Shown: piece by piece, positions 1 to 45,226 of the stretch | How positions within the stretch are numbered: position 1 is the stretch's first letter | How the letters are laid out: each line of letters opens with the position of its first letter | Source: a virus | Virus record (IMG/VR): IMGVR_UViG_3300047157_000050 | Coordinates: 1-45,982 of that record | Reading direction: 5' to 3' (one strand) | Length of the DNA: 45,982 nucleotides | The notes under the pieces: model-generated | What the model was told of the DNA's origin: nothing | Seen by the model: only the letters and a program-made list of their open reading frames with translations | Database searches by the model: none | Program-made: the position numbers and the translations under genes

Positions 1-14
1 AACAGGAGTAAATA

Positions 15-507
15 ATGGCATTAGAAAATGTAAACATAGGGCTTGCTAACTATTGGAAAGTTACTTGTCTTGACAAAGACGGAAACGTCAAATGGGAAGA
101 GAATAAAAAGAACCTAATTACTACAGTAGGTTTAAACCATATTCTAGATACACAATTTCACGCAAGTACACAAGAACACAACTTGGTACATAGGACTGAA
201 AGGAGCTGGTACTCCAGTAGCAGCAGACACTATGGCATCACACTCAAGCTGGGCAGAACTTACTGGCTATTCTGGTAACAGAAAAGAATGGACAGAAGGT
301 GCAGCATCAGGCGGTAGTATGACTAATAGTTCTAGCGTAGACTTTACAATTAACGCAACAGCTACAATTGCTGGTGCTTTTCTAAACACAGCAGCAACAG
401 GAACAGCAGGTACACTATACGGTGTAGTTGACTTTAGTTCTTCAAGAGCAGTAATCTCTGGTGACACACTACAGGTAACGGTAACAGTAACAGCTGCTTC
501 AGCATAA
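15..507 (+). pseudogene. Conserved tail protein A, left copy, frameshifted
   Basis: The product begins MALENVNIGLANYWKVTCLD and is the counterpart of the intact 163-residue protein at 41242-41733. The frame breaks near 170-180, where this copy has one base more than the other. The first part therefore reads 15-278 with a wrong tail, and the correct frame resumes to the stop at 507. A Shine-Dalgarno AGGAG lies just before the start. The family is a small virion-associated protein found upstream of fibre genes in marine phages; its exact role is unknown. The break is probably a sequencing error, because the other copy is whole. Confidence 0.7.
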
Positions 508-518
508 AGGAGTAGAGA

Positions 519-1073
519 ATGGCTTTAGAGGATTTAACAGGTACTAAGTACATAGATGACCTCGTAGCGACTAACCCAGCAGCAGGCGATAATGTCTCTG
601 AGGGTGATGACCATATACGAGGAATCAAGAATGTACTAAAGACTACATTCCCCAGCATTGATGGTGCAATAACTGCAACAGATACTGAGCTTAACTATGT
701 AGATGGTGTTACCTCTGCTATTCAAACTCAGATAGATACTAAGGCAGCAACGACTGCGGTAGTAACTAAGACATCAGCCACAGGGTCAGGTGCTCTGCCA
801 GCAGGTACAACAGCACAGAGAGATGGCTCACCTTCTGCTGGATTTATTAGATTTAACACAACAGATACGAGTGCTGAGATTTACGATGGTTCAGCTTGGA
901 GTCCAGTAGGCGGTGGTAATACGACAGACAAAGGTCTATACGAACACGCACATACCATATCAGCTAACTATAGCATAACAAGTGGCAACAACGCTATGAC
1001 TGCTGGTCCGATTACAATTAACTCAGGGGTTTCAGTCACGATTCCAACGGGTTCAACTTGGGTGATAGCATAA
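519..1073 (+). CDS. Tail-fibre-type structural protein B, left copy
   Basis: 184 residues. The N-terminal part has the pattern YIDDLVATNPAAGDNVSEGD followed by DHIR and a TELNYVDG element. This part is shared with the 206-residue protein at 7563-8183, so the two are paralogues. The C-terminal 30 residues (AGPITINSGVSVTIPTGSTW) form a beta-rich motif that recurs at 2053-2307. The start follows AAAGGAG. The stop overlaps the next start in TAATG, so translation is probably coupled. It is likely a short fibre or fibre-anchor subunit; the receptor is unknown. The right copy at 41745-42299 is nearly identical. Confidence 0.75.
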   Translation: MALEDLTGTKYIDDLVATNPAAGDNVSEGDDHIRGIKNVLKTTFPSIDGAITATDTELNYVDGVTSAIQTQIDTKAATTAVVTKTSATGSGALPAGTTAQRDGSPSAGFIRFNTTDTSAEIYDGSAWSPVGGGNTTDKGLYEHAHTISANYSITSGNNAMTAGPITINSGVSVTIPTGSTWVIA

Positions 1074-1802
1074 TGAGTAAAGTTAAAATACAAGGCAACG
1101 CATCAGGAACAGGGGTACTAACTATAACTGCTCCGAATACGAGTACAGACAGAACGATAACATTACCCGACACAACAGGTACTTTGTTAGATGAGAACTC
1201 TAGCGTACCAGCAGCCAACCTAACAGGCACAGTTGCAGATGCTAGGATTTCCAGCTCTAACAGCTTCTAAATTAACAGGGGCTTTACCAGCGATAAGTGC
1301 AGCTAACTTAACAGCCATTCCAGCAGCAAATGTTACAGGAACGTTACCAGCAATAGATGGAAGCAATCTTACTGGCATTTCTTCAGCTGCTGGCAGTTCA
1401 CATTTTCACGCAATCTTTAGCTCAAGCCAATGGAACAGTTATGCTGGAGGTAACAAAATAGGATTTGATAATACTTTTCGTAATGTAGGTAGTGATTTCA
1501 GCACATCAAATAATCGGTATGTAGCACCAGCAGATGGAGTTTATTATTTTTATTATTTGATTTATTCAGCTCTAAACGATGCTTCAAATGGTTTTACTTT
1601 TAGAAAAAATGGTGCGACTACTGACCTTGTTGACCGAAACCAACAAGTAACAACTTTTGACGAACACAATGCTGGAGACCACGTCCAGACTGGTACTCTT
1701 GTTGTTAATTTAAGTGCAAACGATTACATAGAAATTTACAGTACCACTCAAAGTGATTTGTACACAGGACATTCAAATTGGGGTGGCTTTAGAATATCTT
1801 AG
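1073..1802 (+). pseudogene. Tail fibre C, left allele, C1q-like head, frameshifted
   Basis: The gene starts at ATG 1073, overlapping the previous stop. It reads to about 1252, where an extra C shifts the frame, and continues in another frame to TAG at 1802. The N-terminal half matches the fibre at 42299-43073, with repeated LTGALPAI and LTAIPAAN units typical of fibre shafts. The C-terminal 140 residues are different: DFSTSNNRYVAPADGVYYF followed by beta-strand-rich sequence resembles a C1q/TNF-like jelly-roll head. It is likely a receptor-binding fibre. The shaft is shared and the head is swapped relative to the right copy. The indel is probably a sequence error. Confidence 0.65.
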
Positions 1803-1810
1803 GAAATATT

Positions 1811-2062
1811 ATGAATTATTTAGAACAGAAAGTATGGAACAAAAATCACAGTACAGTTTGGAGAGAAATAGTTTCTCGCTTTGGACAGTCTGAATATGAC
1901 GATGAAACAAAACGAGCTGCACATATGGAAACACTTAAAGCTGAATGGGATGCTAAAGATTATGCTAGAAAACGCAAAGCTAAATATGACTTACTTAATC
2001 AAGATGAAATGATGCAATTAAATCTGAGTTTCCAACACCATAGGAGTAACGAATGGCAATAA
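1811..2062 (+). CDS. Small fibre chaperone-like protein, probable frameshift near its end
   Basis: As read, the protein has 83 residues, starts MNYLEQKVWNKN and contains AKDYARKRKAKYDLLNQDE. The motif YARKRKxKYD is shared with 43083-43379, and a weaker form (YARNRAAEYP) occurs at 44165-44455. The last residues look wrong. One frame over, the sequence reads NDAIKSEFPTP and stops at 2041-2043, matching the IKAEFPKP ending of the right-copy protein. A one-base indel near 2008 is therefore likely and the real stop is probably 2043. Its place directly after a fibre gene suggests a dedicated fibre-assembly chaperone, which is inference. Confidence 0.55.
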   Translation: MNYLEQKVWNKNHSTVWREIVSRFGQSEYDDETKRAAHMETLKAEWDAKDYARKRKAKYDLLNQDEMMQLNLSFQHHRSNEWQ

Positions 2063-2307
2063 CAATTAGTGGCGGTGGAATAACAACAAACGAAATACTA
2101 AACGACACAATCCTTGCTGCCGATATTAATTCAGCAGTAGAGTTAGGTGGTCCAAGTTTAGGTGCTTCGAGTGTGATTAGAACCAATGCCCAAACAATAT
2201 CTGAAAATATAACCATTCCTAGTACATCTAATGGTATGAGTGCTGGACCTATAACAATCGCTGATGGCTACACAGTCACAGTCAACGGAAACTGGAGTGT
2301 GGTATGA
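2053..2307 (+). CDS. Short fibre-type protein
   Basis: 84 residues, starting MAITISGGGITTNEILND after AGGAGT. The C-terminal part, MSAGPITIADGYTVTVNGNW, is the same beta-rich anchor motif seen at the end of the protein at 519-1073. The N-terminus resembles that of the fibre at 43389-44168 (MAIVINGSGT), so the two occupy the same slot in the two alleles of the cassette. The stop overlaps the next start in ATGA. Function is unknown; a virion or fibre role is inferred from context. Confidence 0.6.
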   Translation: MAITISGGGITTNEILNDTILAADINSAVELGGPSLGASSVIRTNAQTISENITIPSTSNGMSAGPITIADGYTVTVNGNWSVV

Positions 2308-2443
2308 GTACATTACAGTTAAAGAATTAGCAGCACCAACTGGCTTTGATTTAAAAATAGCTGCTGGTGAAACGCTAGACCTCAAGAGTCAAGGCACAGT
2401 TACTATGCCTACTGGCACTCTTATGGAGGTAGCGGGGCAATAA
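2304..2443 (+). pseudogene. Very short fibre-type gene with a frameshift
   Basis: ATG at 2304 overlaps the previous stop. The frame hits TAG within nine codons. One base over, it reads KELAAPTGFDLKIAAGETLD and on through a PTGTLMEV ending to a stop at 2441-2443, which overlaps the next start in TAATG. The intact product would be about 46 residues and made of the same glycine/threonine-rich beta motif as its neighbours. It is either a sequencing indel or a decaying fibre fragment. Confidence 0.45.
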
Positions 2444-3057
2444 TGGCATCAAAAATTAAAGTAGACCAATTAGAAACCGCAGATGGTTCAGGCACTATAG
2501 CCTTACAGAATCAGCTATCGGGAATGACGAGTGCAAGTATGCCTACTGGTAGTGTGTTACAGGTACAAACTGGCTATCACAAGTGATGTTTCCAGCTGGT
2601 AGCTCAATACAAGCTAGTTCAGATAAGATTTTCAGCATCAATTACACCAAATAAATCAACTTCAAGCAAAATATTAATAAGAGGGACTTAGTTCCTTGCA
2701 GAGCTAACACCACAATTTTCTAACAACAAATAATAGCTGACCATTCAGGTCACAATATAAATAGAATAGGTGATGCAGCACAATCAATAATGTAGATTGT
2801 ACAAACAGGAAAATATATACACTTGGGCATTATGCAGCAAGTACGATAGTATGTACCTTGGTCAGTGATAGTAATACTGGAGGTATGTTCATGAAGTATT
2901 TTTAGCACTCACCTAACACTACAACTTCAATAGCTTATTACCACTCTAATGAAAGGTACTTCATCAGTTGCTGCTTCAGAATGCAAGTAACTATAACTCT
3001 AGTTCAGGACACGATGCTAATTTATCGTCAATAACACTTATGGAAATAGCGGGATGA
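2443..3057 (+). pseudogene. Broken tail-fibre gene
   Basis: It opens with MASKIKVDQLETADGSGTIA, a familiar start for phage fibre proteins, then stops at 2584-2586. Several indels follow. The end of the stretch reads MEIAG before TGA at 3055-3057, the same ending as the intact fibre at 43389-44168 (MMEIAG). So about 615 bases once coded a fibre of roughly 200 residues, now with multiple frameshifts. Because disruptions are dense here, either the sequence is poor or this allele is decaying. No other gene is visible between 2587 and 3084. Confidence 0.5.
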
Positions 3058-3084
3058 TTAATTTAATTTTAACAGGAGCAAGAA

Positions 3085-3852
3085 ATGGCAAATGAGATGA
3101 GTACAATAAAATCAAGTGACGAACATCTAACACTAAACGCTGATGGTTCTTCTAAGGATATAAAGTTCCAAGCCAACGGAGTAGAGAAAGCGAGTATCAG
3201 TTCTGCTGGTGCGTTTACTTCTACTACGATTGATGCGACCAAGCTGACAGGAGCGTTACCAGCCATATCGGGTGCTGCTTTAACAGGAGTTGGAGTTGCT
3301 GGTATTACATCAACTGCTGATGCAACTGCTATAACAATTGATAGTAGTGAGAATGTAGGTATTGGAACTACAAGCCCTTCTTCTCCATTACATCTTTCAG
3401 CAGTTAAAAATGATGGATGGGTTGCACAATTATTAAATACAGGCACAGGTTCAGATGCCAATGGAGTATTAATTAAAGCTGGTGTTGATGATGCAGACCT
3501 TATTCTACGATTACAACAAGCAGATGGTGGTGCTATATTAGATATAAAACACGATGGCAGAGGCTTGTCACAGTTTACTGCAAAGGCTTGGGCAAGATTT
3601 GAGAACAGTACATTACACGATTCACATAATTGCAGTAGTGTAAGTCAAAGCGGTAATACAGGTTATTATGATATTGCTTTTACAAATGCTATGACTAATG
3701 CAAACTACGCTGTAGCAGGTATGGCTCACGCAGACAGAATGTTGTCTTATCATTCAGCTCCTTCTACACAAAATCTTTATTTGTGGAGTTACAATTCAGC
3801 TGGTACTGCTGAAAATGGTAACTATCAATCAGTTATAGTTTTTGGAGATTAA
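3085..3852 (+). CDS. Tail fibre D, left copy (intact)
   Basis: 255 residues. The shaft contains TKLTGALPAISGAALTGVG and the widespread fibre element SENVGIGTTSPSSPLHLS. The C-terminal head, about residues 115-255, is rich in beta strands. The gene follows an AACAGGAG ribosome site. The right-hand counterpart at 44459-45225 is nearly identical but carries several indels, so this copy gives the best reading of the protein. It is probably a receptor-binding or accessory fibre. The start region differs from the right copy (MANEMSTIKSS here, MSTIQSSS there), which marks the edge of the swapped cassette. Confidence 0.7.
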   Translation: MANEMSTIKSSDEHLTLNADGSSKDIKFQANGVEKASISSAGAFTSTTIDATKLTGALPAISGAALTGVGVAGITSTADATAITIDSSENVGIGTTSPSSPLHLSAVKNDGWVAQLLNTGTGSDANGVLIKAGVDDADLILRLQQADGGAILDIKHDGRGLSQFTAKAWARFENSTLHDSHNCSSVSQSGNTGYYDIAFTNAMTNANYAVAGMAHADRMLSYHSAPSTQNLYLWSYNSAGTAENGNYQSVIVFGD

Positions 3853-3853
3853 T

Positions 3854-4138
3854 ATGAAAATAATATTTCATCATACTGAATCAAACACTCTTGGAGAAAT
3901 GACTCCAGCACCTAAGTTTTTAGCAACACTTGATGGTACTGAAGAAGAAAAAATGATTCATCTTGCTAATAAAGATTTACCTACTGGAACTAAGTATGAA
4001 ATTGTTGCAGACGATTATCTTCCTTCAGATAGAACATTTAGAATTGCTTGGGAATATGTAGCTGGTTCTGACGAAAAGACTTCAGAAGATTTAAGTGCAG
4101 AGGACTTAGCTAAATACAATATGAAGGAGAATAGATAA
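3854..4138 (+). CDS. Fibre-associated small protein, left copy
   Basis: 94 residues, MKIIFHHTESNTLGEMTPAP. ATG 3854 is preferred to an upstream TTG at 3842 because GGAG at 3844-3847 sits six bases before it and the previous gene stops at 3852. The sequence is acidic, with the ending EDLSAEDLAKYNMKENR. It overlaps the next gene in TAATG. The position after a fibre gene suggests an assembly factor; I do not recognise a named domain. The right copy at 45227-45513 is frameshifted. Confidence 0.65.
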   Translation: MKIIFHHTESNTLGEMTPAPKFLATLDGTEEEKMIHLANKDLPTGTKYEIVADDYLPSDRTFRIAWEYVAGSDEKTSEDLSAEDLAKYNMKENR

Positions 4139-4368
4139 TGCCAATGCAAATTAACATAAATAAGGCAAAGGCTGCTACTAAAGACAGACTGAGAGTAGAC
4201 AGAAAACCTCTGTTAGAAGAACAAGACATTCTCTTTATGAAGGCACAAGAAGCTGGTACATCAACTTCAGCTATTGTGACAGAAAAGCAAAGGCTCAGAG
4301 ATATTACAAATCAAGTAGATAGTATGACTACTACTGATGAGTTAAAGGCAGCTAAAGTAGAAGCCTGA
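4138..4368 (+). CDS. Tail-fibre assembly chaperone-like protein, left copy
   Basis: 76 residues, helical and charged. It contains INKAKAATKDRLRVDRKPLL and an ending RDITNQVDSMTTTDELKAAK. This resembles small phage chaperone-type proteins that follow fibre genes and share the pattern of an early Lys/Arg-rich helix, a middle LRD, and a late TxDELKA. Translation is coupled to both neighbours (TAATG at its start, TGATG at its end). The role is inferred from position and the general family look. Confidence 0.6.
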   Translation: MPMQININKAKAATKDRLRVDRKPLLEEQDILFMKAQEAGTSTSAIVTEKQRLRDITNQVDSMTTTDELKAAKVEA

Positions 4369-4958
4369 TGTCTCAAAGGCTGCGTAACAATTTGTATGCT
4401 TTTGTAGTTGTGTTCGCTTTCTGGTGCATATCGTTCTCAGTAATGGCTGCTGACCCTATTGTTACAAACAGTACAAGTAATAGCACAGTTACTACAAGTA
4501 CAGATGCTAAGAGTACAATAAGGACAAACCCACCTAGTGCAATTAGTCCGAGCATTAACGCAAGTAATAGTGACTTATGTATGGTAGGAGTTAGTGGAGC
4601 AGTACAGACACAGATACTAGGTATCAGTACAGGACAGGCTTACTCAGATGAGAACTGTATGAGATTAAAGAATGCAAAGGTACTCTATGATATGGGTATG
4701 AAGGTAGCAGCAGTTGCTTTAATGTGCCAAACGAGGTCGGTGTATGACGCAATGAAATTTGCCGGGACTCCCTGCCCGATAAACTCGCCCACTACAGGTG
4801 AGGGGCTAATAGGACAAGAAGCTACAGCAGAATGGAGATTGAATCCTAAGAAGATTCCAAAGAAACAACAGACAGCAAATATGGATAGAGGAGTATTTCT
4901 TGAGAAATTGGTTAGCGGTATTATTGGCGTTATCTTGCTCGCTATCCTCGTGGTCTGA
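4368..4958 (+). CDS. Secreted protein with N-terminal signal and C-terminal membrane helix
   Basis: 196 residues. Residues 9-27 (LYAFVVVFAFWCISFSVMA) form a signal peptide or signal anchor ending at an AxA-like site. A Ser/Thr/Asn-rich stretch follows. The middle has four cysteines, including MCQTRSVYDAMKFAGTPCPI, and the last 17 residues (SGIIGVILLAILVV) are a membrane helix. It opens a cluster of four membrane or secreted proteins. Function is unknown; a periplasmic lysis or envelope role is possible. The last 59 bases overlap the next gene. A partial second copy starts at 45746. Confidence 0.6.
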   Translation: MSQRLRNNLYAFVVVFAFWCISFSVMAADPIVTNSTSNSTVTTSTDAKSTIRTNPPSAISPSINASNSDLCMVGVSGAVQTQILGISTGQAYSDENCMRLKNAKVLYDMGMKVAAVALMCQTRSVYDAMKFAGTPCPINSPTTGEGLIGQEATAEWRLNPKKIPKKQQTANMDRGVFLEKLVSGIIGVILLAILVV

Positions 4959-6369
4959 CCCAGAGATAATTGAGCATCAGATTGCAGATGATGGCTGGGT
5001 TGAAGTACCTCTTGACTTTACTTTTCCTTTTTATGGAAATAGTTATGTCACTAGTTTTATGTTTAGTAACGGTGTTGTGGGGTTTCTTGACCCTCTTGAT
5101 GTACCCGGTACTGGCATTGTATATGATGGGTTGTGTTGTCAAGGACAGGACCTAAGTTCATTTACAGGTGTAAGATTTAATTACACCATAATGCCTTGGA
5201 ATACAGATTTAATAGACACAGGTGTAGGTAAATTTTATACACAAGGTGACTCCACATTTCAAAAGTATATGTGGGAAAATTTATCAGAGTATTACGACAG
5301 AAATACAAGTAATACATTTGACCTGACAATATACCCAATGGGTAACATAGATGTAAACTATGAGCAGGTACAAATAAATAACCACGCAGTAACAGTAGCA
5401 GTGGTAGGAGATTTAAGTCAAGGTGAGTACGAACAATGGTTCTATAATCATCCGACAAGTGGAGCAATCTTTTGGAACAGTCAAGAAGATGACCCAGTAG
5501 AGATAGCAAATGGAGAGAGTGTATGCAGTGTAATACCAGACAGTCATATCAGTTGTTTATACTACCCACAAGTCTATGCTGATAATGTGTATAATCAACA
5601 ATGTGCATTGGACCCTTTGTATGATTACGGATGTGATGGCTGGGACGATGCTTACATAGAAGAATATGTTGAGGAAGATATACCAGAAGTTTGGGAAACT
5701 AATGAGGAAGATATTGAATCGGTATTCGTCTTGGAAGAGCCAGAGATTTTTGAAGTAATAGAAATAGAAGCGTTGGATGATTACACTTTAATTGCCACCA
5801 CACTAGAAGAAGCAATACCAGAGATGGAAGACTTGTTTGAAGAGATGGCACAAGAAGAATTGATAGAGGAAATAGAAGCAGAGCTAGAAGAATTCCTAGA
5901 GCCAGAGTTAGAAGAAGAACCTTTAGAAGAATCAATAGAAGAGGAACTTGATGAGCCAGAGCCAGAAGAAGACACCGTACAAGAAGAACAAACAGAAGAA
6001 GAGCCAGAACAAGAAGCAATAGTAGAAGTTGTAGAGCAACCAGTATTAAAAAAGGTAGCAAAGAAAGCAAGTAAAAAAGATAAGATGCGAGAGATTATAG
6101 GCAACAAGCTAAAGAACCTTGCAACAGAAATGGGTGAGGCTGCATCACTAGAAGAACAACAAAAACTACAAAGCCTAATACTGGCACTCTTAAACTTTAA
6201 TGCTGGATTCAATAGCTACAACACACAACTACTTATTGATGGTGTATTTTATGAAGACAAAGGTATATACTTAGACAAAGACATACCAGACAATCAAAGA
6301 GGATTAAGAAACGGTTTGGCTAATGAAATACTACATAATAAACTAATGGACTTACAATGGCAGAAATAG
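4900..6369 (+). CDS. Secreted nidogen-like protein with long Glu-rich region
   Basis: 489 residues. The start is TTG 4900, chosen because GAGGAG at 4888-4893 lies six bases upstream and the first 19 residues (MRNWLAVLLALSCSLSSWS) form a signal peptide. Residues 25-210 resemble a nidogen-like beta domain, with GNSYVTSFMFSNGVVGFLD as the key element and several cysteines. Residues about 215-380 are extremely Glu-rich. A basic patch (VLKKVAKKASKKDK) and a helical C-terminus ending ANEILHNKLMDLQW follow. It may span the periplasm or decorate the envelope. No enzyme motif is seen. Confidence 0.6.
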   Translation: MRNWLAVLLALSCSLSSWSDPEIIEHQIADDGWVEVPLDFTFPFYGNSYVTSFMFSNGVVGFLDPLDVPGTGIVYDGLCCQGQDLSSFTGVRFNYTIMPWNTDLIDTGVGKFYTQGDSTFQKYMWENLSEYYDRNTSNTFDLTIYPMGNIDVNYEQVQINNHAVTVAVVGDLSQGEYEQWFYNHPTSGAIFWNSQEDDPVEIANGESVCSVIPDSHISCLYYPQVYADNVYNQQCALDPLYDYGCDGWDDAYIEEYVEEDIPEVWETNEEDIESVFVLEEPEIFEVIEIEALDDYTLIATTLEEAIPEMEDLFEEMAQEELIEEIEAELEEFLEPELEEEPLEESIEEELDEPEPEEDTVQEEQTEEEPEQEAIVEVVEQPVLKKVAKKASKKDKMREIIGNKLKNLATEMGEAASLEEQQKLQSLILALLNFNAGFNSYNTQLLIDGVFYEDKGIYLDKDIPDNQRGLRNGLANEILHNKLMDLQWQK

Positions 6370-6908
6370 AGTACGCAGGAGTTAAGGTAGGGGGTAGTAA
6401 GGCTCTACTAATAATACCCCTCTTAGGGACAATCCTTGGAGCTCTGTGGGGTGGTTTTGAAGTATATCAAAGATACTTAGATATGGAAGCCAAGATTGCT
6501 GCATTTGAGTCACCTGATTTGTCTGTTATAGAAAAAGATTTAGCAGTTATAAATGAGCATATGTCTACAGTAAATACACATATGGAGTTTGTTAGTAAAG
6601 AAATTGATTTGTTTAAAGAAGAACTAGACTTAATTAAAGCAAATGTTGATGAACAGATTACATATGTAAAGGAAGTAAAGAAGGATGTTAGAGAAGATAT
6701 GCGACACCTTGAAAGTATTGTTAATGATGTAGAAACTAAGTTACAGAAACAAAAAGAAAACTTAGCAACAATGATTGACAACGCTGACACAAGATTTGAC
6801 CAGAGAAGAGATGCTCTTTATTCTGACACGGATAGAAAGATTAAAGAAGTAGAAGAAAGACTTAACACAAGATTGCAAAGAGCATTGGATAACCCACTTG
6901 CTAACTAA
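6357..6908 (+). CDS. Membrane-anchored coiled-coil protein
   Basis: 183 residues. Residues 16-35 (ALLIIPLLGTILGALWGGF) form one membrane helix. Nearly all of the rest is predicted coiled coil, with long runs of heptad-like Leu/Ile/Val and charged residues. This architecture, one N-terminal helix plus a long coiled coil, is that of an inner-membrane spanin (Rz) or a virion membrane-contact protein. It overlaps the preceding gene by 13 bases. An i-spanin role is inference, as no partner o-spanin is adjacent; a small lipoprotein lies at 21023-21181. Confidence 0.5.
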   Translation: MAEIEYAGVKVGGSKALLIIPLLGTILGALWGGFEVYQRYLDMEAKIAAFESPDLSVIEKDLAVINEHMSTVNTHMEFVSKEIDLFKEELDLIKANVDEQITYVKEVKKDVREDMRHLESIVNDVETKLQKQKENLATMIDNADTRFDQRRDALYSDTDRKIKEVEERLNTRLQRALDNPLAN

Positions 6909-7562: not shown

Positions 7563-8183
7563 ATGGCATTAGAATCAACAACATACATAGATGGGCTAGT
7601 AGCAACAAACCCTACAGGCACAGACCCACGAAGTCAAGGCGATGACCACATAAGATTAGTTAAGTCAGCAGTAGCTGCTACTTTTCCTAACATTGCTGGT
7701 GCTATGACAGCTACGCACACAGAACTAAATAAGATAGATGGTTATACAGGTACAACAGCAGAGCTAAACTACAATGATGTACCAACATTAGGTACAGTAG
7801 AAGCATCAAGAACTGTAACTGCTGATGCTGTAGGAACAACAACTAATTTAAAGACCAAGAAGCAAACAGAAATTGTTAATGCAGTAGGTACAGTCAGTAC
7901 CTCAACAGCAATTAACTTTGCACTAGGAAATGTGGTTACTGCGGTACTTGCAAGTGGCGGAGCGTTTACTATAAGCAATGCACCTAGTTCTGGTATATAC
8001 GGTAAGTTTAAATTAATATTAACTAATGGTGGTACGGTAGCAGACCCTTGGCCAAGCAGTGTCAAGTTTGCTGGTGGTACTACGCCTACATTAACAACAA
8101 GCGGAATAGACATTCTTACATTTGAAACGATTGACGCAGGTACAAACTGGTATGCTGTAGTTGATGGTTTAAACATGAGCTAA
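7563..8183 (+). CDS. Tail structural protein, paralogue of protein B
   Basis: 206 residues. The first 75 repeat the pattern of the protein at 519-1073: TYIDGLVATNPTGTDPRSQG, DHIRLVKS, TFPNIAGAMTATHTELNKID. The C-terminal 100 residues differ and read as beta strands ending DAGTNWYAVVDGLNMS. This suggests a shared attachment domain carrying different distal domains. It lies directly before the tail nozzle gene, so a tail appendage is likely. Confidence 0.6.
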   Translation: MALESTTYIDGLVATNPTGTDPRSQGDDHIRLVKSAVAATFPNIAGAMTATHTELNKIDGYTGTTAELNYNDVPTLGTVEASRTVTADAVGTTTNLKTKKQTEIVNAVGTVSTSTAINFALGNVVTAVLASGGAFTISNAPSSGIYGKFKLILTNGGTVADPWPSSVKFAGGTTPTLTTSGIDILTFETIDAGTNWYAVVDGLNMS

Positions 8184-8186: not shown

Positions 8187-9734
8187 ATGCCGGCACAAAT
8201 AACAGTATTAAATCCTACAGGTATTAACAGAGACATTGACTCGTATGAACTACCAGAAACGCAATGGTCTGATGGTAATAATATACAATTTGACAATGAC
8301 AAAACTGCCAAGGTATTAGGACAACAGCAAGTATTTGGTACGCCCACGGTAGCACCTTACTGGTTACTACCTTTTAACACTACTACTACTGATTACTGGT
8401 TGTATCCTAGTTTAACTAAAATATATAGAGTAAGCACATCTGGAACTACAACAACACACGCTAACATAACACGCTCTAGCGGTGGTGATTACTCAGCTAC
8501 TGCTGCTAAGGGATGGAACGGTGGAGTTTTAGGTGGTGTTGCTATACTTAACAATGGTGTTGATGACCCACAAATGTTAGGTTCTGCATCTTCTAATTTT
8601 GCTGACTTAACTAACTGGCCAAGCAGTACAACTTGCCAAGTTATTAGACCATTTAAAAGATTCTTAGTAGCACTAGACACAACAGAGTCAAGTACACGCT
8701 ACCCATTCAGAGTTAAGTGGTCACATCCAGCAGAGGGTGGTACAGTACCTACAACTTGGGACCCAGCAGATGCAACTAAGGATGCTGGCTATGTAGATTT
8801 ATCACAGTCTAATGGAAATGTAGTAGATTGTTTACCATTAGGTGATGTTAATATTATATATAAAGAAGATTCAATCTGGTCTATGGCATTTGAGGGTGGA
8901 CAGTCTATATTTGGATTTAGGCAACTATTTGATGATGTTGGTATCCTAGGTAGACACTGTGCAAAAAGTTTCGATAACAAGCATTTTGTGGTTGCTGAGG
9001 ATGACATATATATACATGATGGACAAACTAAGCAGTCAATTGTAGACCAGCAAATTAGAGATGAGCTATTTAACTCTATGCACCCAGACTACAAAACAAG
9101 AACTTTTGTAGCTGCGGACAGAGAAAAAAATGAGATGTGGGTATGCTTTGTATCTAACACAAATGACAGCAATGCGTTTGCAGACACAGCATATGTATAT
9201 AACTTTAGAAACAACAGCTGGTCTAAGAGAGACTTACCTTATGTAAGCTATATTTCTTGGGGTATTGTAGACACGGTAAGTACAAGTGACTGGTCAGAGT
9301 CAGGAGACTGGGATACAGATAGTGAGTCTTGGGATTCACCACTTAAGCCTAGCTTATTATTAGCTGCTACAAGTGCGACCAAATTATATGTATTAGGCAG
9401 TAATCAGAATGCAGGTACAGACTTTAGAGCATTTGTAGAAAAAGATAATATGCAATTAGGTTATCCGGGAACTAAAACTATACAAAAATTAGTACCCAGA
9501 ATAAGTGGTACTGGTTCAGTAGATTTTTATGTAGGTCAAGAGATGATGCCACACGAAGGCACGACATGGAAAGGGCCATATACATTTACTAGTGGTATAC
9601 ATTCAGAGATACCAGTCAGGGCTACTGGCAATTATTTAGGAATTAGGGCTGAGTCAACTGATGCAAACACATGGTCATTAGCTAACCTAGAAATTCATTG
9701 GACTCCTTCAGGTAACAGAGGCAAGGGTGTATGA
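8187..9734 (+). CDS. Tail nozzle/hub protein (T7 gp12 / P22 gp10-like)
   Basis: 515 residues. The start MPAQITVLNPTGINRDIDSY and the long series of beta-rich blades (GGVAILNNGVDDPQML, CQVIRPFKRFLVALDT, IYKEDSIWSMAF, DDVGILGRHCAKS) match the style of the beta-propeller nozzle protein that closes the short tail in podoviruses. The position, after an adaptor across the circular junction and before a gp13-like protein, supports this. The next gene overlaps by four bases (ATGA). Assignment is by pattern and synteny, not a database match. Confidence 0.65.
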   Translation: MPAQITVLNPTGINRDIDSYELPETQWSDGNNIQFDNDKTAKVLGQQQVFGTPTVAPYWLLPFNTTTTDYWLYPSLTKIYRVSTSGTTTTHANITRSSGGDYSATAAKGWNGGVLGGVAILNNGVDDPQMLGSASSNFADLTNWPSSTTCQVIRPFKRFLVALDTTESSTRYPFRVKWSHPAEGGTVPTTWDPADATKDAGYVDLSQSNGNVVDCLPLGDVNIIYKEDSIWSMAFEGGQSIFGFRQLFDDVGILGRHCAKSFDNKHFVVAEDDIYIHDGQTKQSIVDQQIRDELFNSMHPDYKTRTFVAADREKNEMWVCFVSNTNDSNAFADTAYVYNFRNNSWSKRDLPYVSYISWGIVDTVSTSDWSESGDWDTDSESWDSPLKPSLLLAATSATKLYVLGSNQNAGTDFRAFVEKDNMQLGYPGTKTIQKLVPRISGTGSVDFYVGQEMMPHEGTTWKGPYTFTSGIHSEIPVRATGNYLGIRAESTDANTWSLANLEIHWTPSGNRGKGV

Positions 9735-12815: not shown

Positions 12816-14951
12816 ATGGCAATTGAAGAAGAAGATTTAAACTTGTGGCAAAAAGCAAACAACTGGTTTGACCAAAACATATTTGATTTTGACAGTTTAC
12901 CTAAAGGCTTTCCATTTAATATGTCTGATGCCGATAATTTATTTCGTGGTGGAGAGTCACAAGGAGAAACAGCTAGTAGGTTTGCTAGGCCACAAGAATA
13001 TCCTATTATGAATATGATAGAAGGTGCTAGCACATACTTAGAAAATTTAGATAGTCCATTTAAAGGGATGTGTATTTTACCAGATGGAAGAAGAACTCAA
13101 GTTGATAGAAAAACTTGTGATGTGTTAGGTGGTAGATTTGAAAGTACGCAAACTATTGAAGATGACATGATAAGAGAAGGCAGAAAACATGAGCCGGGTT
13201 CTTTTTCAGGTGCTCCTTACCAAGGAACTACCGGATTTTTAAATATGTCTGCAAAAAAGGCTGGTCATATTTTTGATGTAATGAATACTGCGGGTGTAAT
13301 GGATAATGAATTACAAAGAAAGGGATTAACTTGGACACCTGATGTTGTTAATTATTATTTAAAATATGGAAGATTGCCTGATGCTCAAGGAAGAGATGAT
13401 GTAGGTGGGGATATTCCTGATACAATAGATGCTGATGGTAATGTAATTCCGGGAAATGCAGCTCCTTACTTTGGTCAAGAGGGTCTACTTACTAGTAGAG
13501 AAATGGAATTAAGGTACCCTGACAGGTATGCAGAGAATGCTATTGCAAATAAAAGTATATTTGATGATGCTATGAGACAGGCAGAAGCGAGGAATGTTTT
13601 AGGTAAAAGCTCAGACCAAGTATATAACAATATGGAAGATGAGCTGTTCCTGCAACAAAAAGCAAGAGATGATGTGAAAAGAGAACAACAAGTTAGAGGA
13701 ATTCTTGATGAAAGAATGTCTGCCGATGCATCAGCAGCCCCTGCATACGGAGCTGAGCAAGCTATCTTACAAGAAGAGGCAAGACTAGAAGAGGAAAGAC
13801 AACAAAGACTTGCAAACATACAAAGCAATATAGCACAACAAGACGAGATGGAAAGTGGTTTTGTTAAATATCAAGTTACTGGTAACAACAATATTGATAG
13901 TGTTATTTCAGATGCTATAGATGCTACTGTTGAAACAGGAACCGCACTAGGAGAAAATGTAGCTGAGTTTACAGCAGACGCTATTGAAAAGCTAGGTCCC
14001 CTTGTAGAGGAAGGTATGGCACAAGCTAGCATGCTTGGTCAAGAAGCTATGGGCTATATGCAGGATGAAGTTATACCTGCAGCAACTAGTTTGTTTAAAG
14101 ATGCCTCAAATGCAGCGGTTGCTACAACTCAAAGTTTATTAGCAGATGACCCAGCAGATGAAAGTTCAAGTGAGGATATGGCTATTGATGGGGGCAAGAC
14201 TACTGATGGTAAGACTACTGATGTTAAGACTAATACAGTAACAACAAGTACAGACAGCAGTCAGGGCAGTAATGGAGAAGTTACTACTAAGAAACAAGCA
14301 GAAAAAGTTGTTAAGAAAACATTCTCTTCTGAGGGTGGATTTAACATGGACAGATTAACTAACCCATTGTCACCAGAGAATAAGGCTTGGTGGTTTGAGC
14401 AAAGACCGGGAGACATACCGGGTAACAATAGAGCAGTCGAGTTCTTTAACGCACTAGCTTATATTGGTACACCTCTTAAGTACAGACCAGCTAAGACTCC
14501 TATGGAAACTTTGCAGGAAAGAAGAATACAACATTCTAATAATCTAATGGATGCTGCTGCTTCTAGGCAGACAGCACTACAAGCTGGTAGCAATGCTGGT
14601 TTCACTAGATTAAAAGGAATGATAATAAAGCCAGAGACATTACAAAATAGTTACTTAAAAGATGATAAGTCTGATAGTTGGTTTAAGAGGACATTTTCTG
14701 GGGGTAAAACAGCCCTAGAAAAAGAAGCAGATTCTTATACAGCAGCAATTCAAATTAATCAGATAATGACTGAGTTAGCTATGGCTGGTGTGCCTCCTAG
14801 TAAAGCTGTTGCTGAAGGATTATATACAATAAGACAAGCAACTGGTAGACCTACCGTATCTGCAGATGGACAAGTAAGTGCAGAAGAAAAAAGATTGGCC
14901 TCTTTACCAAAGTCTGAATTAAGAGACATAATTAAAAAGCAGAGATCATGA
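12816..14951 (+). CDS. Large internal virion (ejection) protein, gp15-like position
   Basis: 711 residues, starting MAIEEEDLNLWQKANNWFDQ. It is mostly helical and acidic with Gln/Glu-rich coiled-coil stretches (EARLEEERQQRLANIQSN). There is a Thr/Ser/Lys low-complexity region near residues 455-490 (repeats of GKTTDGKTTDVKT). No transmembrane helix or enzymatic motif is seen. The order small Ala-rich protein, Gly/Pro protein, transglycosylase, this protein and then a 1,090-residue protein parallels gp14-gp15-gp16. It is probably part of the ejected trans-envelope channel. Confidence 0.6.
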   Translation: MAIEEEDLNLWQKANNWFDQNIFDFDSLPKGFPFNMSDADNLFRGGESQGETASRFARPQEYPIMNMIEGASTYLENLDSPFKGMCILPDGRRTQVDRKTCDVLGGRFESTQTIEDDMIREGRKHEPGSFSGAPYQGTTGFLNMSAKKAGHIFDVMNTAGVMDNELQRKGLTWTPDVVNYYLKYGRLPDAQGRDDVGGDIPDTIDADGNVIPGNAAPYFGQEGLLTSREMELRYPDRYAENAIANKSIFDDAMRQAEARNVLGKSSDQVYNNMEDELFLQQKARDDVKREQQVRGILDERMSADASAAPAYGAEQAILQEEARLEEERQQRLANIQSNIAQQDEMESGFVKYQVTGNNNIDSVISDAIDATVETGTALGENVAEFTADAIEKLGPLVEEGMAQASMLGQEAMGYMQDEVIPAATSLFKDASNAAVATTQSLLADDPADESSSEDMAIDGGKTTDGKTTDVKTNTVTTSTDSSQGSNGEVTTKKQAEKVVKKTFSSEGGFNMDRLTNPLSPENKAWWFEQRPGDIPGNNRAVEFFNALAYIGTPLKYRPAKTPMETLQERRIQHSNNLMDAAASRQTALQAGSNAGFTRLKGMIIKPETLQNSYLKDDKSDSWFKRTFSGGKTALEKEADSYTAAIQINQIMTELAMAGVPPSKAVAEGLYTIRQATGRPTVSADGQVSAEEKRLASLPKSELRDIIKKQRS

Positions 14952-18289: not shown

Positions 18290-19786
18290 ATGCCTAGACA
18301 ATGTGGAATGGGACCGGGCAATGGGTTTTTACCCGGAGGAACTCTAGCTGCAACTAATAAAGAGCTCAATGATTTCTTTAAAAATATAGATGATATTGAA
18401 CAGGATGATAATCCTACTGGTCCAGATGTAGATAAAGATGGCAACATAACCTTAACTCATTTCAGTGAAGCTGACAATCTAGATGTTGTTGACCCAGACT
18501 TTTATGGTCAAGGATTACAGGGTAGTAATGCAAGGGTAAACAGGGGCTCAAATTTTGTGCCCTTTGCATCTTATGGTATTGACATGGGTAAACCTAAGGG
18601 TTACAAAAAAGAACCCGGTCTTGGCAAGGAGAGGTACACTACAAAGATACCAGCTAACAAGTTGTATAATGTAAGTGCAGACTCTAAGAATTTTAGAGAG
18701 AAAGCTAACGCAAGAGCAGCTGAGGCTGGAGAGGTGCAGGACTACAATGGATTGTTTATGGCCCAAGTATTAAAAGAGGCTGGGTATGCTGGTGTATGGG
18801 CTGACAATAGTTCTGGACTACAAGCTAGTATATGGGAAGTATTACCAGTAACAAAGCAAAAGACAGCTGAGGCAAACAAAGAAGACTTTGGAAGAATGAG
18901 GGATAACATGGGAGTATCTGATAAAAATATTGAGGACTGGACAAAGCTACAAGAAAAGAATGAATTTTTACAGCACCCTGTATTAAAGAAAATAGCAGAG
19001 CAAAGAATTGATAATCGTAATATATCAGAAGAGCAGTGGGCTGAGGCTGTACTAACATGGAATCCTATTGAGCCTATAGGAAAAGTACAAAAAATACCTA
19101 GTTATGGTGAGATGCTTAGTGCTTTAAAAATTAAAAGTATTAAGGGTCTAATTAAACCTGTGACATTACAACAACCTAGAAATAAAGCATACCGAATGGT
19201 TCCGGATGATAAGCGTGTAGCATCTCGATTAGATATACCTGCATACACAAGAGCTAATACATGGGTTGTTACTGTTCACGAGCCAGACCCAGCTCCAAGT
19301 AAAGCCGGACCAGTTATAGGATATGCTAAGTCAGCTGTTCTTGTTGGAGATTATAGAGGGCCAGTTACATTTAGTGATAGCCCTAGAGATTCTGAGCAAA
19401 TATCCGCAGGTAAAAATGAGAAAGGAAGAACGATTACTAAGTATCCTTTTGCTGTATTTACTGGTGCTTGGGTCAATGAGTCTGTAGAAACTACAACTGA
19501 AAGAGTAAAACAATATTTAAAAGACCCTGAATGGGCCGAGGTGGGTATGAATCCTAATAAGTTTGGTTATTTCTATATCAAATCAACTGGTCAAAAAATA
19601 CTTACATCACCAGAAGTGCTACAGGTAGGACCAGTAATGGTGGCTAGGATTTATCAGAATGGACAACAGGTAGCCACCATGGAAGATACTGCTTACAGTA
19701 GATTAAAAGGCACTACTGGTATTTCTAGACAGTTTGCTCAAACAGCTGATAGAATTGTTCAAGAACAGTTAGCCAGTAACTTTTGA
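18290..19786 (+). CDS. Polyvalent protein with ADP-ribosyltransferase-like domain
   Basis: 498 residues. Residues 52-190 (ITLTHFSEADNL, then VDPDFYGQGLQGSNARVN, PGLGKERYTTKIPANKLYNV, KEAGYAGVWADN) match the pattern of the ADP-ribosyltransferase-like domain common in phage polyvalent proteins. Residues about 310-475 (RLDIPAYTRANTWVVTVHE, AGPVIGYAKSAVL, AEVGMNPNKFGYFYIKSTGQ, SPEVLQVGPVMVA) match a second domain widespread in such proteins. The gene ends the ejection-protein block, so it may be injected to modify host proteins at once, as T4 Alt is. Catalytic residues cannot be assigned surely. Its end overlaps the converging gene by 28 bases. Confidence 0.6.
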   Translation: MPRQCGMGPGNGFLPGGTLAATNKELNDFFKNIDDIEQDDNPTGPDVDKDGNITLTHFSEADNLDVVDPDFYGQGLQGSNARVNRGSNFVPFASYGIDMGKPKGYKKEPGLGKERYTTKIPANKLYNVSADSKNFREKANARAAEAGEVQDYNGLFMAQVLKEAGYAGVWADNSSGLQASIWEVLPVTKQKTAEANKEDFGRMRDNMGVSDKNIEDWTKLQEKNEFLQHPVLKKIAEQRIDNRNISEEQWAEAVLTWNPIEPIGKVQKIPSYGEMLSALKIKSIKGLIKPVTLQQPRNKAYRMVPDDKRVASRLDIPAYTRANTWVVTVHEPDPAPSKAGPVIGYAKSAVLVGDYRGPVTFSDSPRDSEQISAGKNEKGRTITKYPFAVFTGAWVNESVETTTERVKQYLKDPEWAEVGMNPNKFGYFYIKSTGQKILTSPEVLQVGPVMVARIYQNGQQVATMEDTAYSRLKGTTGISRQFAQTADRIVQEQLASNF

Positions 19787-20154
19787 ATATTAACTAAATA
19801 TAGTTTAGAGGCCCTATGGTCTCCGCCCATGACAGTATAAGGTTTCATATCTTCCATTATCTTTCTTAGTTTGTCAGTATTAAAGACTAAACTACAGCAC
19901 AACTCACCATCCTTTACCAAGTTATGTACCCAGAGCTCTGCCTCTGTACTGGTCAGCCCAGATGGTTTACCATAGCTTTCAATCTCGATACAGATGTTAC
20001 CTGTACTCGCCCACTTATCCCTCTCTGTTTTTATCTCGCAAGTCTTGGCCCCAGAAAACATTTCATCTATATGTTTTTCCCACTGCTGACCAAACTCTAG
20101 GTCCACATCAAACTTACGCATCTCTTTTATATCCTTACTCTTGTTCAGTCCCAT
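19759..20154 (-). CDS. Putative PD-(D/E)XK-type nuclease-like protein
   Basis: 131 residues. FDVDLEFGQQWEKHIDEMFS is followed by KTCEIKTERDKWASTGNICI and LTSTEAELWVH. An early Asp/Glu pair, an EIK motif and a later Trp-rich strand suggest a restriction-endonuclease fold, as in small phage nucleases. This is a pattern-level guess. It is last in the early minus-strand operon, directly after the RusA-like gene, and overlaps it by 20 bases. Confidence 0.5.
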   Translation of the reverse strand: MGLNKSKDIKEMRKFDVDLEFGQQWEKHIDEMFSGAKTCEIKTERDKWASTGNICIEIESYGKPSGLTSTEAELWVHNLVKDGELCCSLVFNTDKLRKIMEDMKPYTVMGGDHRASKLYLVNIQKLLANCS

Positions 20155-20548
20155 GCTCTTCTCCTTTTATTTCTACGACAACATAGTTGTCCGTATCTAG
20201 GCCACCAAACTCTGTAGTAATCTTGGTAACATATTCGTAGTGGTCATCTTCAATTATATTATTCTCTACTAAAGCATCCATAAGAAACTTATGCATAGGA
20301 AATGTATAGTTATCTAAGTCTTTCTTTCTTTTGTTATTAAAAAATAGTTTGTAGTTAGGTTGTATTGTCTTGTACTTGGGCAATGTCTTTACCCATTCTT
20401 TCACTGTTGCATGGTATGCTTGCTTTACATTGTTCTTTTGTATGTAATGCATAGGAAAGAAATTGTTTAGACTAACCATGAGCTCCCTCTTCTTATCACC
20501 TCTGCCTTTACTAAATACAGGTAGCGGTAGTATTCCTTTGTTCTTCAT
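20135..20548 (-). CDS. rusA: RusA-type Holliday junction resolvase
   Basis: The preferred start is ATG 20548 (MKNKGILPLPVFSKGRGDKK), which overlaps the upstream stop in TAATG; a longer reading from 20572 adds eight residues. The protein has 137 residues. The motif NNKRKKDLDNYTFPMHKFLM followed by ALVENNIIEDDHYEYV holds the acidic residues (DLDN, EDD) expected for RusA-family resolvases, which cut four-way DNA junctions. In phages it trims branched DNA before packaging, the role of T7 gp3. Confidence 0.7.
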   Translation of the reverse strand: MKNKGILPLPVFSKGRGDKKRELMVSLNNFFPMHYIQKNNVKQAYHATVKEWVKTLPKYKTIQPNYKLFFNNKRKKDLDNYTFPMHKFLMDALVENNIIEDDHYEYVTKITTEFGGLDTDNYVVVEIKGEEHGTEQE

Positions 20549-20682
20549 TACTTTCTCCAGTCTGATTTCCAAAGTCTTGGGTTAGTGTCTTTCTTTTTCT
20601 TTTGTAATTCTTGGTAGAGTCTAGCAGTCTTGTCTAGTTGAACAAGACCACTAGGTTTCTTGATTGGCTTACTTGCCTCCAC
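20548..20682 (-). CDS. Tiny basic protein, GTG start
   Basis: 44 residues beginning VEASKPIKKPSGLVQLDKTA and ending TNPRLWKSDWRK. The GTG start at 20682 lies inside the end of the upstream membrane-protein gene, and its stop overlaps the resolvase start in TAATG. The frame is fully open between the two genes, and without it the operon would have a 120-base gap, which is unusual here. Basic and Lys-rich; function unknown. Confidence 0.5.
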   Translation of the reverse strand: MEASKPIKKPSGLVQLDKTARLYQELQKKKKDTNPRLWKSDWRK

Positions 20683-20908
20683 TCGTGATGTCTTTATCGA
20701 GTAGTTTCCAAATAATACCGGCTGCGATTATTCCTGCTAGTCCTGCATTACCAAGAGTCCAAACTATATCAAGTATAGAACCAATTACATTTCCTGTAAG
20801 GAAGGCTACCTTTTGTCCAAAGATAATCTGTAATACAATTGATAAGCTAATCAACTTAATACCTACATCTATAGCACCATCGGCACCATTCTTAATTTTC
20901 TCTAACAT
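20669..20908 (-). CDS. Small two-helix membrane protein, holin-like candidate
   Basis: 79 residues. Two hydrophobic segments: IDVGIKLISLSIVLQIIFG and IGSILDIVWTLGNAGLAGII (extending to IAAGIIW). A charged N-terminus and a short charged C-terminus flank them. Small proteins of this type are common in marine podoviruses, and a holin role is plausible given the adjacent lipoprotein gene. An AAAGGAG site precedes ATG 20908 and lies inside the preceding small gene. Confidence 0.55.
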   Translation of the reverse strand: MLEKIKNGADGAIDVGIKLISLSIVLQIIFGQKVAFLTGNVIGSILDIVWTLGNAGLAGIIAAGIIWKLLDKDITSGGK

Positions 20909-21026
20909 CTTTACTCCTTTCTTTTAGTTTAACATCTATCGCCTTGAGGATTTTCTCTATCTTTTTTTCTAGAGCAGGCACCTCTACCTTTTCTTTCCAT
21001 AGCTTTCGCATTAAACTTACTCTCAT
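20892..21026 (-). CDS. Tiny basic helical protein
   Basis: 44 residues, MRVSLMRKLWKEKVEVPALE and onward to LKAIDVKLKERSKD, basic and helical. The start overlaps the lipoprotein stop in ATGA, and the stop lies 17 bases into the next gene. The close packing supports translation. Function unknown. Confidence 0.5.
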   Translation of the reverse strand: MRVSLMRKLWKEKVEVPALEKKIEKILKAIDVKLKERSKDVREN

Positions 21027-21181
21027 ATCATCCACCCTACACACAGCCTGTCATGTGGTGGCGAGCAATTTAATTGTTGTTGTTCTACCTCTTGCTGGTG
21101 TAGCTTCTCTTCAAAAGCACTACATCCAGTTAAGCTAATAACAATAACCTGCAAAACTATTATTAATAATATCGTATTCAT
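21023..21181 (-). CDS. Small lipoprotein with lipobox, o-spanin candidate
   Basis: 52 residues starting MNTILLIIVLQVIVISLTGC. A hydrophobic signal leads to the lipobox LTGC at residues 17-20, so the mature protein would be a 33-residue outer-membrane lipoprotein (CSAFEEKLHQQEVEQQQLNC). Size and lipobox fit an Rz1-type outer spanin, although it is Gln-rich rather than Pro-rich. The start overlaps the RNR stop in ATGA. The gene is too short for most callers. If it is a spanin, its inner-membrane partner may be the coiled-coil protein at 6357-6908. Confidence 0.6.
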   Translation of the reverse strand: MNTILLIIVLQVIVISLTGCSAFEEKLHQQEVEQQQLNCSPPHDRLCVGWMI

Positions 21182-23124: not shown

Positions 23125-23330
23125 TCTTCATCCTCCATTGGTGCGATTTCAATGTCAACCATTCTCTCGCCTTGTTCATCATAATAATCATAATACTTTA
23201 GTCTACCATTCCTGTGTAATAACACAGCAGTAGTAATACCTTTTTCATATGATTGTTTGTTTGTAAAGTATACTGTAACAGCTCCTGCTATTATTAGTAC
23301 ACTACATATTATTAAATATTCTAATCCCAT
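23121..23330 (-). CDS. Small membrane-anchored protein
   Basis: 69 residues. Residues 3-22 (LEYLIICSVLIIAGAVTVYF) form one membrane helix, followed by an acidic cytoplasmic tail (NGRLKYYDYYDEQGERMVD). It is translationally linked to the RNR gene downstream and to the 53-residue gene upstream. Function unknown. Confidence 0.55.
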   Translation of the reverse strand: MGLEYLIICSVLIIAGAVTVYFTNKQSYEKGITTAVLLHRNGRLKYYDYYDEQGERMVDIEIAPMEDEE

Positions 23331-23492
23331 TTACTGCTCCTCAAAATCTTCTAGAAATCTGTCTTTCTTTTCTATTAATTTATTTTCAAATGCATCTAGT
23401 AAATCCTCTGGCTCTATCTCTAACTCATCACATATAAGACAGGTATCATATGTCTTTGCAATGTAGGCCTTTAACTCTGGTAGCTGTTTCAA
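23331..23492 (-). CDS. Tiny acidic protein, TTG start
   Basis: 53 residues from TTG 23492, which overlaps the exonuclease stop: LKQLPELKAYIAKTYDTCLI, then CDELEIEPEDLLDAFENKLI. The pattern YDTCLICDxLEIxPEDLLDxF looks like a conserved small phage protein. The stop TAA abuts the next ATG (TAAATG). It is absent from ATG-only readings of this stretch. Function unknown. Confidence 0.6.
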   Translation of the reverse strand: MKQLPELKAYIAKTYDTCLICDELEIEPEDLLDAFENKLIEKKDRFLEDFEEQ

Positions 23493-24310: not shown

Positions 24311-24557
24311 TATTTTTCTCCCTCATTGTAATTTCTATTAGACGATTTAAATACCATTGTGCTTTCTTTAAATCTTCTAATCCATTCTTCATCTTATATC
24401 GAGTGACATATTTTACCACATTGCCCTCAAGAAAACTCATGTTCTTTGAGGTAATATAATCAATACATTCTATACCCTGTGTGTAGTGCTCTGGGTTGAT
24501 GTTGTCTGGTATTCTGTGCTCATTCCAGTCAACCTTAAATTCATTAGTGCGTTTCAT
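24291..24557 (-). CDS. DUF3310-family small protein
   Basis: 88 residues. NPEHYTQGIECIDYITSKNM followed by GNVVKYVTRYKMKNGLEDLK and AQWYLNRLIE is the characteristic DUF3310 (SaV-like) pattern. The family is widespread in phage replication modules; its function is not settled, and a nucleotide-metabolism role has been proposed. It overlaps the polymerase end and the exonuclease start. Confidence 0.75.
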   Translation of the reverse strand: MKRTNEFKVDWNEHRIPDNINPEHYTQGIECIDYITSKNMSFLEGNVVKYVTRYKMKNGLEDLKKAQWYLNRLIEITMREKNNESSKQ

Positions 24558-27901: not shown

Positions 27902-27925
27902 TTTGCTCCCTTACTTTAAATTAAA

Positions 27926-27948
27926 AGGGCTACCATGATAGTAGCCCT
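27926..27948 (-). terminator. Rho-independent terminator after the SSB gene
   Basis: On the minus strand AGGGCTAC and GTAGCCCT form an 8-base-pair stem with a seven-base loop, followed by TTTTAATTT. It lies 16 bases beyond the SSB stop and just before the primase-helicase gene. It probably limits readthrough, so SSB would be made in excess over the replisome enzymes. Confidence 0.75.
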
Positions 27949-27963
27949 AGACTTTATGACCAG

Positions 27964-28350: not shown

Positions 28351-28471
28351 ATTTAACTCCTTTATAGTTAACATTCTGCCCAAAGGCTGGGCTACCTAGT
28401 AGTTAATACTACTAAAAGTGCATTAAGAAAAATGGAAGTAAAAACTTAACGCACTCTTAGTAATACTAAGA

Positions 28472-28535: not shown

Positions 28536-28565
28536 ATATTGTACCAACTATTTTATGTTATGCAA

Positions 28566-45225: not shown

Positions 45226-45226
45226 T

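Follow-up and report, generated by a model that had tools for sequence, protein, structure and literature searches.

The window analysed here is one complete virus record of 45,982 bases (IMG/VR record IMGVR_UViG_3300047157_000050), the two ends of which overlap in direct orientation and carry two versions, alleles A and B, of a tail fibre cassette. Very probably, the record is a wrap-around assembly in which co-occurring strains of one marine podovirus, with a genome of about 41 kb, are joined and the two ends come from different strains. The metagenomic assembly would have been extended beyond one turn of the genome and into a sister strain, and, if the co-occurring strains differ in their fibre cassette, the ends would come to overlap at 94% with another cassette between the matching arms. 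Such an origin would not require any single genome to hold both cassettes.

The overlap between the two ends of the record

Comparison of the window with itself by blastn showed that the left arms, 1-1339 and 41228-42565, match in direct orientation at 93.96% (3 gap openings, E = 0), and that the right arms, 3112-4596 and 44477-45982, do so at 94.09% (13 gap openings, E = 0), and the overlap runs from base 1 of the record through its last base. The first-pass annotation, which was made from the sequence alone, had placed these arms correctly to within a few bases; its description of them as near-identical is too strong for an identity of about 94%, with 4.6–5.8% of the aligned bases differing. 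Substitutions alone amount to 78 of 1,337 bases (5.8%) in the left arm and 68 of 1,485 (4.6%) in the right arm. In the intact adapter gene, the substitutions between the two copies number 9, 4 and 25 at codon positions 1, 2 and 3, a pattern as in true strain divergence. On the ground of this pattern, sequencing error was ruled out as the source of the substitutions, and it was accepted for many of the indels. The identity of the arms is also patchy, as runs of 368 and 197 identical aligned bases (gaps ignored) are longer than any that 2,000 shuffles produced (at most 236 and 183, respectively), which would be expected if both strains had swapped or recently shared pieces.

Between the arms, 1340-3111 and 42566-44476 (1.8–1.9 kb) have only three short blastn stretches in common, and this bears out the earlier claim of an unrelated or only distantly related middle of about 1.8 kb:

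2014-2072 (43350-43408), plus strand, 59 bp at 90%, from the end of a small gene to the start of the next gene
1956-2008, 54 columns at 80%, found by blastn
3032-3058 (44143-44169), plus strand, 27 bp at 89%, fibre C-terminus and stop

The stretches at 2014-2072 and 3032-3058 are gene edges. A different number of genes had also been claimed for the two copies, and this difference is partly blurred by frameshifts in both of them. In Mu-type invertible fibre segments, the alternative heads lie in inverted orientation. An invertible fibre segment was ruled out here, since the two cassettes point in the same direction and none of the matches listed by the self-comparison at E 1e-5 is inverted.

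Single cassettes, end overlaps and indels among the relatives

The 163-amino-acid gene directly upstream of the adapter was used as the cassette marker, and a record was taken as spanning when it runs unbroken from the marker to a gene at the far end of the cassette; loci of records already included whole were dropped from the count. The marker is single in all 14 other contiguous spanning records or loci. It is likewise single in G003 and G008, which cover the cassette only when read across their own ends, and in all 52 other loci that carry it; the window alone has two. That both cassettes lie within one record could mean that one genome carries them as a diverged duplication with two fibre sets. 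We regard this as extremely unlikely, since two marker copies occur in none of the 14 other spanners and none of the 52 other loci, and the boundaries of the repeat would need to coincide exactly with the contig ends. Moreover, eight near-complete relatives measure 40.3–42.4 kb, which the window exceeds by about the length of its overlap; G013 reaches 47.5 kb, but it has a 4.3-kb overlap of its own. A tandem or dispersed duplication recurring in the relatives was rejected on the same count of contiguous spanners.

A diverged overlap touching both ends is found in 4 of the 12 records of at least 35 kb, namely the window, G004, G006 and G012. It measures 455 bp (90.8%) in G004, where it falls in the capsid region at 39.3–39.8 kb in window coordinates, 157 bp (84%) in G006, near 33.1 kb in window coordinates (extrapolated), and 1,106 bp (94.9%) in G012, which belongs to another lineage. 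In G013 the overlap (88%) stops short of the end of the record and corresponds to about 16–20 kb of the window. The matching parts of G013 (loci L190-L192) are 1-4306 and 41663-45968, in a structural gene region. No end overlap was found among 232 shorter loci, which form a weak control, as many of them are pieces cut at the flank limit. The overlaps lie at differing positions of the genome, which a packaging site or a peculiarity of the cassette would not bring about and contigs running past one turn in a strain mixture would.

Indels were counted when they shift the frame against every covering relative, at bases covered by at least three relatives. The ends of the window hold 8 such indels in 4,558 bases and the body 1 in 15,395 bases, before the open reading frame at 33508 (Fisher p 5.3e-5). 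The window thus resembles a consensus contig with poorly corrected ends. Unique indels per kb are 0.76–0.90 in G001, G003 and G006, which share one IMG sample number, 0.37 in G002, 0.51 in G012 as measured on less than 2 kb, and 0–0.17 in G004, G005, G007, G008, G009, G010, G011 and G013. It could also be supposed that the record is one real molecule with unlike terminal repeats, that is, a terminal-redundancy heterozygote cut from a concatemer in which two co-infecting strains had recombined, which would account for a diverged direct terminal repeat of about 4.7 kb and for the unlike end overlaps of the relatives. This seems very unlikely, since window-only indels at the ends with nearly none in the testable body point to a consensus contig rather than to one molecule; the overlaps also vary in position and in length from 157 bp to 4.7 kb, which headful packaging could yield as well.

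Near the cassette, G006 is 97–99.5% identical to 39.8–41.8 kb, which comprises the left flank and the start of the tail copy, and 97.3% identical to 3553-6400, from the end of the head copy through the right flank into unique sequence. The outer arm 1-1200 is closer to G002, G003 and G007 (about 98%) than to G006, and positions 1-1039 or more are about 98% identical to the same three records and 94–96% to G001 and G006. It is also conceivable that one of the two alleles is chimeric with an unrelated phage and absent from this phage group. Frameshifts are present in both copies, and the heads of allele B (about 42,566-43,202 and 43,491-44,164) match only short stalk pieces in 13 records. However, the C1q head of allele A and its small gene recur in G006 and 2034-2415 recurs in G002, G003 and G004, all four being of the same lineage, and the leaders and small-gene ends of allele B are found in G001, G002 and G005, and such a chimera is scarcely credible.

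Several points weigh against the joining of strains in the form proposed. G006 is close to the window only near the cassette, with 77–87% identity at 7–11 and 21–28 kb and up to 92% elsewhere, so that one backbone strain can be spoken of only locally, and the allele of that strain may be either A or B. The indel contrast rests mainly on the body at 4.6–11 kb and 33.4–41.2 kb, as few close relatives cover 11–33 kb. Judged from the indels, the assembly is probably a long-read one; diverged overlaps of the ends are also seen where unique indels are few (0.11 per kb in G004 and 0.10 in G013), and the trait is therefore not tied to one technology. Taken together, the single marker in 14 of 14 other spanners, the end overlaps of relatives at other positions and the window-only indels at the ends support the proposal of the first-pass annotation that two strains are joined, and its other proposal, that one molecule carries both alleles, found no support. 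Read as a duplication, the finding would mislead, and it is best taken as a trait that arises in assembly where phage populations are microdiverse. Such records could be mistaken for longer genomes with two cassettes, and the trait is seen in 4 of 12 long records.

The fibre cassette and its adapter

The swapped region is, by annotation, a host-recognition cassette, in which short fibre genes stand in a set order behind a docked adapter; its content includes matches to the C1q and tail fibre families, as in metaviromic islands. Receptor binding and an effect on host range would be its likely roles. The head copy, with allele A, has the following parts:

1-1339, plus strand, left arm of the head copy, counterpart of 41228-42565
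15-507, plus strand, 163-amino-acid gene upstream of the adapter, broken by a +1 indel at 173-177 seen in 0 of 10 covering relatives
519-1073, plus strand, adapter gene of allele A, 184 amino acids, codon 81 at base 759
1073-1802, plus strand, fibre slot 1 of allele A, with leader MSKVKIQGN, stalk repeats and C1q head (PF00386, E 3e-9), frameshift near 1250
1340-3111, plus strand, fibre cassette allele A, as delimited by self-comparison
1811-2062, plus strand, small gene behind the C1q fibre, a putative chaperone by its position
2053-2307, plus strand, conserved 84-amino-acid gene (MAITISG...NGNWSVV)
2308-3058, plus strand, remnants of two fibre genes with leaders ITVKEL and MASKIKVDQ, frameshifted
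3085-3852, plus strand, last fibre slot of the head copy, leader MSTIKSSDEHLTLNADG also in relatives, PHROG 11355 tail fiber (E 2.3e-10)
3112-4596, plus strand, right arm of the head copy, counterpart of 44477-45982
3854-4368, plus strand, two small genes behind the last fibre

L120 and L101/G006 have a longer relative of the small gene at 1811-2062, again behind a head of this type. The last fibre has no match among the phage records searched. The second small gene behind it resembles PHROG 4912, tail fiber assembly (E 0.001), with Phage_tail_APC below threshold, and family searches found no family for the first. The head copy is disturbed by frameshifts near 175, 1250, 2010 and 2305 and within about 2560-3030. 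As for the 84-amino-acid gene (2053-2304), its last approximately 58 residues match 189 phage records, mostly of cyanophages. The tail copy, with allele B, is made up as follows:

41228-42565, plus strand, left arm of the tail copy, 98% to G001 (41227-42409) and 98% to G006 (first 746 bases)
41745-42299, plus strand, adapter gene of allele B, with N-terminal dock and then the shared part from codon 81 (base 41985)
42299-43073, plus strand, fibre slot 1 of allele B, leader as in allele A and another head, start disturbed by an indel at 42298-42304
43083-43379, plus strand, small gene, putative chaperone, PHROG 9114 (E 1.4e-16)
43389-44168, plus strand, second fibre of allele B, leader MAIVINGSGTVTG, PHROG 892 tail fiber (E 1.9e-16)
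44165-44455, plus strand, small gene, putative chaperone, PHROG 9114 (E 1.4e-27)
44477-45982, plus strand, right arm of the tail copy, with insertions of 1–2 bases against the covering relatives

This copy is disturbed at 42304 and repeatedly from 44486 onward.

In the relatives, the row runs in the order of adapter, slot 1 (M[S/A]KVKIQG), 84-amino-acid gene and slots MSTLEVK, MASKIK, MPTEISG and MSTIKSS, with small genes between. There are up to five fibre slots, all of which are present in L087, L120, G004, G009 and G012, and other relatives lack some slots or have them replaced; several LUZ24-like loci (L015, L046, L145, L160 and G013) have other genes at the place of the cassette. The leaders of the fibre genes are conserved and their heads are variable. 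The small genes between them are putative chaperones in view of their position and family likeness, those of allele B belonging to PHROG 9114 and others weakly resembling tail fibre assembly proteins. The C1q unit of allele A occupies slot 1 here and in L120 and stands behind another leader in G006, so that one unit of head and small gene can be joined to different leaders. Over 48 units clustered at 40%, head type and small-gene type agreed with an adjusted mutual information (AMI) of 0.44 against a shuffle maximum of 0.14; before the count, L104 had been omitted because it duplicates L105, as had rows that are not fibres and units that agreed in both small gene and head end. At stricter cut-offs, this pairing loses much of its weight, as the AMI falls to 0.12 (maximum 0.12) and 0.14 (maximum 0.10) with four same-head pairs left, and between head and leader at 40% the AMI of 0.11 is not above the shuffles (maximum 0.16). 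In the G001 28709 region (locus L163, cassette open reading frame 1982-2455), a fibre leader is in frame with the C-terminus of a small chaperone-like gene, which suggests a deletion of the head or an error. A diversity-generating retroelement would need a reverse transcriptase, and none was found among the open reading frames of the window that were scanned, which were not all of them, and template repeats were not sought.

Residues 9-68 of the allele B adapter resemble a solved structure described as ‘Tail fibers protein’ (PDB chain 9nxk_A, E 1.3e-11), which fits a dock. A structure prediction of the adapter had a mean pLDDT of 36 and was not used. The first 65 residues of the gene at 7563-8183 (7563-7748) are 55% identical to the N-terminal dock of the adapter, and the relatives have the same second copy; this gene perhaps encodes a second docked appendage protein. 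Adapter rows were compared when at least 80% identical after codon 81, a cut-off chosen for this analysis, and 15 rows below it do not enter the dock counts by motif. The 51 rows compared form four N-terminal clusters of 21, 15, 7 and 5; of the other three rows, two fit no cluster and one is cut. After the border the identities of these clusters are 86–100, 87–96, 89–96 and 84–86%, respectively. By motif count in distinct records, homology reaches codon 81-83 in 15 of 20 rows with dock A, 17 of 17 with dock B, 7 of 7 with dock C and 5 of 5 with dock D. A slot-1 leader with intact start follows in 31 of 49 rows, of all four types (hand count); the remaining rows are mostly cut, and that of the tail copy is frameshifted. 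Between dock A and docks B or C, the border is sharp in the DNA, with 17–47% identity in 30-base bins before codon 81 and 87–100% in the first bin after it. The generality of this border is weakened by the five of 20 lineage-A rows in which the common part of the adapter begins at codon 134 and not at codon 81, by the gradual border of dock D (63–77% just after codon 81), whose full-length hits to the window adapter begin at residues 36-61, and by the likeness of docks B and C upstream of codon 81 (63–83%). With dock D gradual and docks B and C sharing upstream sequence, the border at codon 81 is frequent in lineage A and not universal.

The backbones behind these docks are far apart. Loci with dock B are 22–26% identical to the window in the portal and 37–39% in the terminase, and loci with dock D 32–33% in the portal and 35–36% in the capsid. 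In the near-complete records with dock C, G009 and G012, the portal, scaffold, capsid, polymerase, primase and reductase of the window have no match, and the terminase is 43–51% identical over about 200 residues. The same adapter-plus-leader module is thus carried by distantly related backbones, as would be found for a horizontally shared host-recognition module. We tentatively propose, as a possibility of somewhat less than even probability, that marine phages from a number of deeply divergent virion lineages take their multi-fibre cassettes from a common pool. Each lineage would bring its own N-terminal dock, and the plug, the slot-1 leader and the later fibre slots, beginning at one place in the adapter, would be shared. 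If this is true, one crossover could supply a virion with a whole new set of heads and chaperones, in a plug-and-socket manner of host range across families. Recombination of co-infecting phages within leaders, gene ends and the adapter may replace the heads, often together with the following small gene. The swap boundaries reported earlier are indeed visible in the two copies, but they are shown better by the relatives, at the leader/head joins and the adapter border, than by the two copies alone. The cassette shows where marine phages would swap recognition genes, namely in the leaders, at the gene ends and inside the adapter, and a near-identical adapter on phages whose virion genes have little or no relation to one another would make the frequency and the partners of host-range transfer testable.

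The phage and its likeness to known systems

The gene content points to a podovirus distantly related to LUZ24/PaP3. Portal, scaffold and capsid follow in the LUZ24/PaP3 order (PHROG 1216, 3927 and 1328), and a polymerase, a primase-helicase and a ribonucleotide reductase are also encoded. The part adjoining the tail copy is:

34101-41224, plus strand, backbone left of the cassette, with terminase, portal, scaffold, major capsid protein and virion genes (PHROG 2/2472, 1216, 3927, 1328 and 2941)

The capsid protein is 41% identical to that of PaP3, and all 322 matching phage records lie under 60% identity, with 46.5% at the top of those listed. Within 34.0–41.2 kb, no close DNA relation to LUZ24 was met, one piece of 146 bases matching at 70.7%, and membership in Bruynoghevirus was ruled out on this account. 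The likeness to Bruynoghevirus consists in the homologous portal and capsid, and the difference in their distance, every capsid-matching phage record being under 60%. A capsid search of genome contigs gave 22 loci, 21 at 35–46% and one short one at 50%, which is too weak to name a host; many of these loci sit in alphaproteobacterial records. Two pieces of the 35-kb records, used as DNA queries, matched no phage. Outside the cassette, a 515-amino-acid virion gene at 8187-9734 has a further match in PHROG 14417, ‘tail fiber protein; host specificity’, and its product is a possible second host-recognition protein. A 711-amino-acid gene at 12816-14951 has no family match and is mostly absent from close relatives, with weak partial matches in G003, G007 and G013 only. 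At 19500-33000, the GC skew is negative over minus-strand genes, and it is positive elsewhere.

With regard to known systems, the cited passages of PMC6487183 report genomic islands with alternative gene arrangements in long-read viromes, and those of PMC8862349 (viralFlye) report multi-strain components and chimeric contigs in long-read assemblies. The window resembles these in that contigs run over islands, strain mixtures tangle assemblies and chimeric contigs arise; it differs in the divergent overlaps of contig ends, which the same passages do not describe. Among the open-licence papers listed in the searches, none names, in its title or the beginning of its abstract, a row of several fibre slots in set order that shares a border in the adapter. 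In the cited passages of PMC3909814, metaviromic islands of marine phages consist of variable host-recognition genes for tail fibres, C1q-domain proteins and putative tail fibre assembly. Here, too, host-recognition genes vary in related co-occurring marine phages, and allele A has a C1q head; however, the islands there are defined by under-recruitment of reads, and an ordered fibre row or a common border is not part of the description in those passages. The Alteromonas phages A5, V22 and P24, according to the cited part of PMC10579305, share a fibre and its cognate chaperone across virion types. The likeness lies in a fibre and chaperone common to phages of differing virion type, and the difference in the several slots that stand here behind one adapter, with different docks before the shared part. 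The overlap is most likely ordinary in origin, and the cassette belongs to a known kind, of which it forms a variant with unusually clear joins between its modules.

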